A DNA stretch of 36,145 nt from Desulfocapsa sp. (GTDB lineage: Bacteria > Desulfobacterota > Desulfobulbia > Desulfobulbales > Desulfocapsaceae): positions 1 through 36,145 of the forward strand of contig JAOZKN010000015.1 in assembly GCA_029935315.1 (NCBI GenBank). Reading direction: 5' to 3'. Under the pieces are notes generated by a model. The model saw only the letters and a program-made list of their open reading frames with translations. It ran no database searches and was not told where the DNA came from. Made by a program: the position numbers and the translations under genes. Shown in pieces: positions 1 through 1,536 of the stretch; the first letter of the stretch is position 1; each line of letters opens with the position of its first letter.

Positions 1-468
1 TTACGTGGAACCGGTCAGGAGTGGACCTGCCTGTATCTGGATGCGGCATCAAAAGGGTGTAACATTTATGAAAACCGACCCATTGCCTGCAGAACATTGA
101 AATGCTGGGATCCGGAAGAGAGCCTTGCTCTTATTGGCAATGATCTTCTGAGTCGTAGGGTCGTGTTACAAAATGAAGCGATGCTTCTGGAGTTGGTTGA
201 AGGCTATGAAAGAGAGCATCCTCTTCCTGATTTTATATCACTGCAATCAAAGCTTGAAAGAAATCCGAAAGGACTACTCGACGATCTGCAAAATGCAGTG
301 AACGAAGATCTTGCGTTTCGTGATGCGCAGGTACAACATTCTGCAACTGTGGCTTCAGAGGAGTTGTTTCTTTTTGGTCGTCCTCTGTTTCAACTGTTAT
401 CACCATTTGGCATAGAAGTTTTTCAGGAAGGAAATCGCTTATGTTTACAGAAAAGAGTCCGGCAATAA
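1..468 (+). CDS. YkgJ-family cysteine-cluster protein (3' part)
   Basis: The reading frame is open from the first base of the window, so the start lies upstream and 155 residues are visible. The visible N-terminal part has the signature of the YkgJ / zinc- or iron-chelating family (CxxCx~12CxxxC type): a Cys, then C-N-I-Y-E-N-R-P-I-A-C-R and a further C-W. The Y-x-x-R-P-x-x-C-R core is typical. The remainder is a poorly conserved helical tail. Family members are thought to bind a metal ion through the Cys cluster; their biochemical role is unknown. The last 28 bases overlap the start of the TusA-like gene, which suggests translational coupling. A TTG at 97 could be mistaken for a start, but it lies inside the conserved motif. 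Confidence 0.8.
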   Translation, partial: LRGTGQEWTCLYLDAASKGCNIYENRPIACRTLKCWDPEESLALIGNDLLSRRVVLQNEAMLLELVEGYEREHPLPDFISLQSKLERNPKGLLDDLQNAVNEDLAFRDAQVQHSATVASEELFLFGRPLFQLLSPFGIEVFQEGNRLCLQKRVRQ

Positions 469-692
469 AGCTGGAGAGTACGGTCGTTGATTATCGCGGA
501 GATTGCTGAAAAGGTTTTAAAGATGTGCGTGCACGTCTAGAGACCATGGCCCGAAGCCAGGAGTATCAATTTATATGTGATGCCGATATGGCCAGAAGAA
601 TGGACAGGGTTGTAACGCTTGCAGGGGGAATTGTTCAGTCAAAAGATGAACGCGCTGAAGGTGTGCTGGTGAGGGTAATGAAAGCAGAGTGA
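441..692 (+). CDS. TusA/SirA-like sulfurtransferase, probable selenoprotein (in-frame TGA at 507-509)
   Basis: Reading TGA 507-509 as selenocysteine gives one 83-residue protein, the size of TusA (~80). An ATG at 441 has a strong Shine-Dalgarno (AGGAAGGA, 8 nt upstream), codes 22 residues, meets the TGA, and continues in frame to a TGA at 690-692. The N-terminal motif D-Y-R-G-D-C-U matches the TusA active-site block D-x-R-G-x-x-C, so U23 falls exactly on the catalytic Cys. The rest (helix, then a strand ending F-I-C-D, helix, last strand V-L-V-R-V-M-K) follows the TusA fold pattern. TusA proteins carry persulfide sulfur, or selenium in YedF relatives. The usual Pro after the catalytic Cys is missing (U-K-G-F in place of C-P-x-P). 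A hairpin starts 11 nt after the TGA. The gene overlaps the YkgJ gene and is followed by a terminator. The alternative, a nonsense-mutated pseudogene, is less likely given the intact flanks and the hairpin. Confidence 0.75.
521..538 (+). promoter_or_regulatory. Candidate bacterial SECIS hairpin
   Basis: The RNA can fold as a 7-bp stem (AGATGTG 521-527 with CACGTCT 532-538, one G-U pair) with a CGUG loop at 528-531. The loop begins 18 nt after the UGA at 507-509. Published bacterial SECIS models ask for an apical loop roughly 16-37 nt past the UGA with a G among its first two bases; both hold here. It lies inside the coding sequence, as bacterial SECIS elements do. Confidence 0.6.
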
Positions 693-783: not shown

Positions 784-1536
784 CTACCAGCTCTTTTTCT
801 CTATAACAGCGCCTTGAGTAGAAATGGTGATCTGCTCAACGGGAACACTTTTACCAGCAAGCTCGATGGCTTTGTTGATGATACCATTCATGGAAGAGCA
901 ACAGGGAACTTCCATGATAAGAATTGTCAGGCTGTTGAGATTGCAGTTTGCAATAATCTCGCTGAAACGCTGGGTGTACATCTCCGCATCATCAAATTTG
1001 GGACAACCCATCATTACAACTTTTCCCTGTAAATAGTCCAGCTGAAAGTTAGGAGCGGAAACAGCGCAACAATCGGCTGCAACAAGTAAGTCAGCACCTT
1101 GCAGGAATGGTGCGGTGGGCGGAACCAGACGAATCTGAACCGGCCAGTGTGTTAAGGACGAAGTTCCTCCGCCGGCTGCCATTTGTAATGGCTTATTGGC
1201 TGTCTGGCAGGGAGTTTGGGGAGCAAAAGTCTGTAGTTGGGCAGAAGGGCAGCCTGAGGGCTTTGCTGTCTGGGTCTCACCTGCCTTTTTCTGATTGGCA
1301 AGAAATTCCTCAACGGCCTCTTCATCAAAATCTTCAGCTTCCCGTTCAATGATTTTCAATGCTCCTGTGGGGCATGAACCGAGACAGGCTCCAAGGCCAT
1401 CACAAAGATTATCAGAGACAAGTTTCGCTTTTCCATCAATTATCTGTAAAGAGCCTTCAGCGCAGTCAACCACACACTCTCCACAACCGTTGCAGAGCTC
1501 TTCATCAATTTCAATTATTTTTCGCATGATCTTCAT
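784..1536 (-). CDS. hcp-associated ferredoxin (DVU2544-like 4Fe-4S protein)
   Basis: A 250-residue iron-sulfur protein. Its N-terminal domain resembles a 2[4Fe-4S] ferredoxin: the first motif is complete (C15-x2-C18-x2-C21-x3-C25), while the second has Leu where the second Cys should be (C45-x2-L48-x2-C51-x3-C55-P). After a linker there is a Cys-containing C-terminal domain with G-C-P-S, D-C-C, G-C-P and P-C-C motifs, so further metal centres are possible. In Desulfovibrio vulgaris an 'frdX'-type protein (DVU2544) sits next to hcp in the HcpR regulon; the same role, electron supply to hybrid cluster protein, is inferred. The start at 1536 has AAGGA 8 nt upstream; the next Met is three codons in. 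It has its own promoter with an HcpR-like box. Confidence 0.8.
   Translation of the reverse strand: MKIMRKIIEIDEELCNGCGECVVDCAEGSLQIIDGKAKLVSDNLCDGLGACLGSCPTGALKIIEREAEDFDEEAVEEFLANQKKAGETQTAKPSGCPSAQLQTFAPQTPCQTANKPLQMAAGGGTSSLTHWPVQIRLVPPTAPFLQGADLLVAADCCAVSAPNFQLDYLQGKVVMMGCPKFDDAEMYTQRFSEIIANCNLNSLTILIMEVPCCSSMNGIINKAIELAGKSVPVEQITISTQGAVIEKKSW

Follow-up and report, generated by a model that had tools for sequence, protein, structure and literature searches.

The window analysed here, a 36,145-nt stretch of Desulfocapsa sp. DNA, carries at its 5' end what we hold, with a probability of about 0.9, to be a selenoprotein gene in which a SECIS element directs insertion of selenocysteine (Sec); its product is inferred to be, most likely, a small selenium/sulfur relay of the TusA fold linked to selenium metabolism. 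The frame opens with an ATG at 441, meets an in-frame TGA at codon 23 (507-509) and closes with a second TGA at 690-692, giving 83 residues; similarity to its homologues places it far beyond chance, and by this comparison it is a real coding frame. The sequence-only reading had proposed a strong ribosome site ahead of this frame, a TGA at its 23rd codon and a product of 83 residues, all of which were confirmed, with AGGAAGGA as the Shine-Dalgarno-like element. Decoding of this UGA as selenocysteine is very probable on the evidence below, which is comparative and not biochemical; there is no biochemical proof of selenium in the product. The source genome is a draft assembly (3.1 Mb, 257 contigs, the window being contig C127), and the features discussed are collected in Table 1.

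Table 1. Coordinates of the predicted selenoprotein gene, its signals and its neighbours within the window.
Feature	Position	Strand	Description
Upstream CxxCxxCC (PF03692) protein gene, 3' part	1-468	+	Cut by the contig start; 28-nt overlap with the selenoprotein gene
Shine-Dalgarno-like AGGAAGGA	425-432	+	8 nt 5' of ATG 441; read directly from the sequence
Predicted selenoprotein CDS	441-692	+	83 residues, putative Sec at 23; homologues and purifying selection past the TGA
Cys22-Sec23 codons TGC-TGA	504-509	+	Putative Sec codon TGA 507-509; same-column TGA in 120 distinct homologues
Putative SECIS hairpin	521-538	+	7-bp stem 521-527/532-538, loop CGTG 528-531, invariant G 529; covariation, recoding excess
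4Fe-4S ferredoxin-like protein gene	784-1536	-	Convergent, downstream; conserved neighbour, no shown functional link

The frame was recovered in 20 of 56 relatives, nearly all matches containing exactly one TGA. Within the order, profile searches further located the family in 82 of 258 genomes; across the phylum, sampled evenly, they gave clear matches in 32 of 395 genomes (E ≤ 1.2e-15), each again with a single TGA. The next matches in the phylum sample appeared only from E 4.8e-5 on; six of the seven inspected carried the Cys-Pro motif of ordinary TusA/YedF proteins, and the seventh aligned likewise. Across the phylum, 120 distinct homologous sequences have TGA at the Sec column (L128 of genome G118 is one of the predicted selenoproteins), and a Cys codon lies directly 5' of it in 118 of them. 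Their terminal stops are TGA in 69, TAA in 34 and TAG in 16, the remaining one lying beyond its contig end. Downstream of the hairpin, genes of the window's own type showed a dN/dS of ~0.19, that is, purifying selection after the TGA. A selenoprotein gene should conserve its in-frame UGA and be conserved as coding sequence both before and after it, a criterion that these 120 homologues satisfy.

We weighed these data against the reading of UGA under the standard code as an ordinary stop, which would close a 22-codon leader or interrupt a decayed TusA gene, the similarity past the stop being a relic. Small paralogous genes can indeed decay, and one copy (L088) has TAA at the Sec codon; however, a TGA common to 120 homologues, purifying selection after it and the covarying hairpin described below all speak against termination, and non-TGA stops are otherwise absent from this column, so that we give this reading almost no credence. 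Selenocysteine insertion had been declared refutable by homologues ending before the TGA, or by homologues with an ordinary stop there. Neither was encountered: the frames continue past the TGA, and the TAA is confined to that single copy and not to a set of homologues. L088 (G080:C24) retains a fully intact hairpin and may represent a recent inactivation or a read error; G080 holds a second copy, L094, with TGA.

The remaining family members comprise, besides L088, four of one genus with Leu at the Sec column and four truncated sequences. No Cys was found at this column among the family homologues, nor were there Trp variants among the members, for which reason UGA as a Trp codon was rejected. 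Selenoprotein predictions usually have Cys homologues, and their absence here counts against the selenoprotein reading. Because Cys homologues were not found, the family looks Sec-dependent, with the exception of one clade in which Sec would have given way to Leu. The comparison that the sequence-only reading had proposed, a survey of homologues for Cys or Sec at position 23, thus yielded TGA in 120 and Cys in none found. Two further observations concern individual genomes. G007 harbours three family paralogues (L018, L027 and L034) of three different types, and L005, on a contig labelled Bacteroidetes (JAJRWG010000236.1), is a 5'-truncated copy nearly identical to L006 of a Deltaproteobacteria MAG; the L005 contig is probably misbinned.

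The hairpin with a G-containing loop that had been noticed 3' of the TGA behaves as a SECIS element in sequence comparisons. Its loop G529 (alignment column 23) is G in 120/120 TGA members, and 97.3% of the stem cells in 91 aligned genes are paired, with 41 cells changed on both sides, that is, compensatory changes. None of 500 shuffles reached this pairing, and slid registers paired at no more than 59%. Synonymous recoding in the fixed register, which is the informative test even if relatedness among its genes means that they are not independent, left 3.76 of the six inner pairs per gene as compared with 5.90 observed; all six were kept in 112 of 119 genes, 35.7 being expected. For the window gene alone, the six in-register pairs have a P of ~0.014 upon synonymous recoding. 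Allowing the hairpin a free position in each gene rendered only moderate significance, with 40% of the genes below 0.05. A second criterion for a selenoprotein, a SECIS-type hairpin just 3' of the TGA with a loop G, is also met. A scan for terminators found nothing under the rule applied. Among members of the HCU type, L109 has the standard stem register; L022 and L027 do not, which weighs against the selenoprotein reading; their hairpin may be an alternative one situated nearer the UGA, e.g. UCCGU-GAUAU-ACGGA in L022.

The four Leu members belong to one genus and occupy the same tatC-adjacent locus as members with the CU motif. Their stem is broken, with only 2-4 of the six pairs left, as against 5 and 6 of 6 in the two CU-motif members of that genus, and in the tree they form one clade nested within the Sec family, consistent with a single inferred loss of Sec. 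We count this decay of the hairpin where TGA became Leu in support of a coupling between hairpin and Sec. Nested in the Leu clade, L087 (G061:C171) reads TGA at a codon (locus position 1962) that is TTA in its relatives; it lacks both the preceding Cys and an intact hairpin, which leaves reversion, decay or sequencing error as explanations. A TGA lacking its hairpin likewise weighs against the selenoprotein reading.

The Leu forms, together with the failure to detect selC in the host assembly, could also be invoked for a UGA decoded as some residue other than selenocysteine or by leaky read-through. We regard this as very improbable, since neither Trp nor Cys forms were encountered, the hairpin goes with Sec and is decayed in the Leu forms, and the selenocysteine genes are otherwise in place: the host genome contains selA, two selD genes and a selB that is truncated by the end of its contig. 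No selC (tRNA-Sec) scored over the cut-off in this draft, the candidates having been rejected as Ser, Arg, Glu and Leu tRNAs, whereas 17 of 18 related genomes have one over the cut-off. The search for sel genes prompted by the sequence-only reading was therefore borne out for selA, selB and selD and not for selC, and the host, judged by its gene content, is likely able to make selenocysteine. Both selD genes (G000:C222:23797-24735 and G000:C225:6520-7443) carry an in-frame TGA, for which reason SelD itself looks like a selenoprotein in this host.

As to the product, a distant member of the TusA superfamily with a TusA-like fold is supported by structure prediction and profile comparison, which agree with the fold first suggested for it. 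AlphaFold2 predicted a beta-alpha-beta-alpha-beta-beta fold (pLDDT 82.6 and 83.5), and Foldseek ranked YeeD/TsuB, TusA and SirA first or close to first among the matches to the predicted structure. In hhalign, the family aligned over its full length with a broad TusA set at 91.9% (E 6.8e-7; reversed control, 0.2%). This value was obtained after adding TusA/YedF sequences matched by the family profile itself and is somewhat favoured by that selection; a narrower TusA set performed more weakly, with 6.4% in the first hhalign run and 55% with a broader query. The window protein had no match in Pfam or NCBIfam scans, and sequence-profile searches of the PDB returned chance matches only. The Pfam cut-off for TusA (PF01206) was not met either: 4 of 52 members matched weakly (best E 0.029), and member L157 scored 18.4 bits against a cut-off of 28.6 bits.

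The family shares with TusA (PF01206; E. coli TusA, PDB 3lvj, 1dcj) the order of secondary-structure elements (TM ~0.7), the D-x-R start and a reactive residue at the N-terminus of helix 1, and differs from it in the presence of Sec, a loop before helix 1 that is one residue shorter, and the loss of the Cys-Pro-x-Pro carrier motif (CPxP), replaced by Cys-Sec-x-Gly in most members. The missing Pro had already suggested that this may be a distinct Sec variant, a reading that is supported. The placement of the TGA on the catalytic Cys stands only in part: Sec coincides with the TusA carrier Cys if residues are counted from the N-terminal D-x-R-G, but the best profile alignment puts Cys22 there and Sec23 on the following Pro ('CP' to 'CU'). 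Which residue of the pair corresponds to the carrier Cys is uncertain, the profiles favouring Cys22. YeeD/TsuB of the YeeE-YeeD thiosulfate uptake complex (PDB 8k1r, 8j4c), a small TusA-fold partner, is the top structural match and has Cys-Pro in place of Cys-Sec; no YeeE-like transporter was identified among the recurrent neighbours of family genes. YedF (TIGR03527; TusA plus DsrE) contains a TusA-type domain tied to selenium metabolism (PMC5322559), and TusA proteins of YedF length are the next profile matches after the family, whose members, in contrast, are single domains of ~70-90 residues with a predicted Sec. Two other candidates were discarded. Hypothetical protein DG (NF049953, deep-Sep 2025) is likewise a selenoprotein predicted recently in these bacteria; its model spans 172 positions and matches another locus of the genome (G000:C20), with no NCBIfam match here. 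None of 52 members matched the Pfam model of DUF3343, a selenium-linked small protein.

On this basis, ribosomes would start at 441 and reach the UGA at 507-509; there, the hairpin (521-538) would guide SelB and its Sec-tRNA to insert selenocysteine, and translation would run on to 690-692. The resulting single-domain member of the TusA fold group is predicted to carry two vicinal residues, Cys22 and Sec23, at the N-terminal end of helix 1, the site taken in TusA by the sulfur-carrier Cys and the Pro after it. Such a pair in this position points to selenenylsulfide chemistry or to selenium or sulfur being bound transiently; most likely, it would cycle between thiol/selenol and selenenylsulfide, or carry a selenium or sulfur adduct.

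Gene context, as compared across genomes, is an independent link to selenium. In three genomes, selB lies 7-16 nt upstream of the family gene (the one tested scored 381.9 bits with TIGR00475), and in eight loci a LysR regulator precedes it; both of the two tested exceeded the cut-off of NF040786 (selenium metabolism-associated). Such neighbours point to a function in the handling of selenium. Other clades have tatC or napH-like genes as neighbours, and we also read polyphosphate kinase-like or dus-like genes in the adjoining sequences. At the window locus, the CxxCxxCC gene and the selenoprotein gene are likely on the same transcript; the former is also the upstream neighbour in 12 further loci of the type, and the ferredoxin-like gene (neighbour cluster 0) lies downstream in 21 loci, encoded on the other strand. 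Because neighbours vary between clades, the functional role is only weakly constrained. That the protein acts biochemically as a carrier of selenium/sulfur or as a redox relay is an inference.

Two other functions were considered for the selenoprotein. It could be a redox enzyme or a metal/thiol-handling protein with its own chemistry: the CPxP motif of TusA is missing, the loop is one residue short, metal-binding proteins occur among other CU-motif selenoprotein families (PMC13188914), and genes of the window type adjoin those of Fe-S and CxxCxxCC proteins. With sulfur carriers as the closest folds and profiles, and with the gene beside selenium genes in two clades, we consider this a possibility to be kept in mind without favouring it. 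A mainly regulatory function, in which Sec insertion would serve as a readout of selenium status and adjust genes that lie downstream or are linked, would fit a gene that is often the second of a short transcription unit and that in some clades comes after selB or a LysR regulator of selenium metabolism. Yet purifying selection acts on the protein as a whole, which is also predicted to fold, and the downstream genes differ or are convergent, which makes that function improbable. A selenium/sulfur relay, by inference, remains our preferred reading.

The family appears neither in a 2022 selenoprotein list (PMC9312934) nor among the 119 selenoprotein families listed in 2026 (PMC13188914), and no NCBIfam 20.0 model matches it. 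From Desulfolithobacter dissulfuricans GF1, deep-Sep described no new selenoprotein. Within the open-access PMC literature, and allowing for a description elsewhere, the family very probably represents uncatalogued selenoproteins, with more than 120 genes in sulfate-reducing bacteria and their kin, and, as far as the selenoprotein catalogues consulted show, the first member of the TusA fold group with Sec. Ordinary gene calling would end the gene after 22 codons. The TusA-type protein YedF has been linked to SelD (PMC2432076, PMC5322559), and the route by which selenium reaches SelD is not yet fully understood (PMC13188914). It is conceivable, if on balance unlikely, that this phylum-wide Sec-dependent TusA-fold branch, with vicinal Cys-Sec for Cys-Pro, serves Desulfobacterota as a dedicated carrier of selenium or as a selenium-status protein, which would make it a candidate for the selenium-delivery factor to SelD that has yet to be identified. 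Since TusA-type proteins are natural candidates for that delivery, the family makes the question testable.
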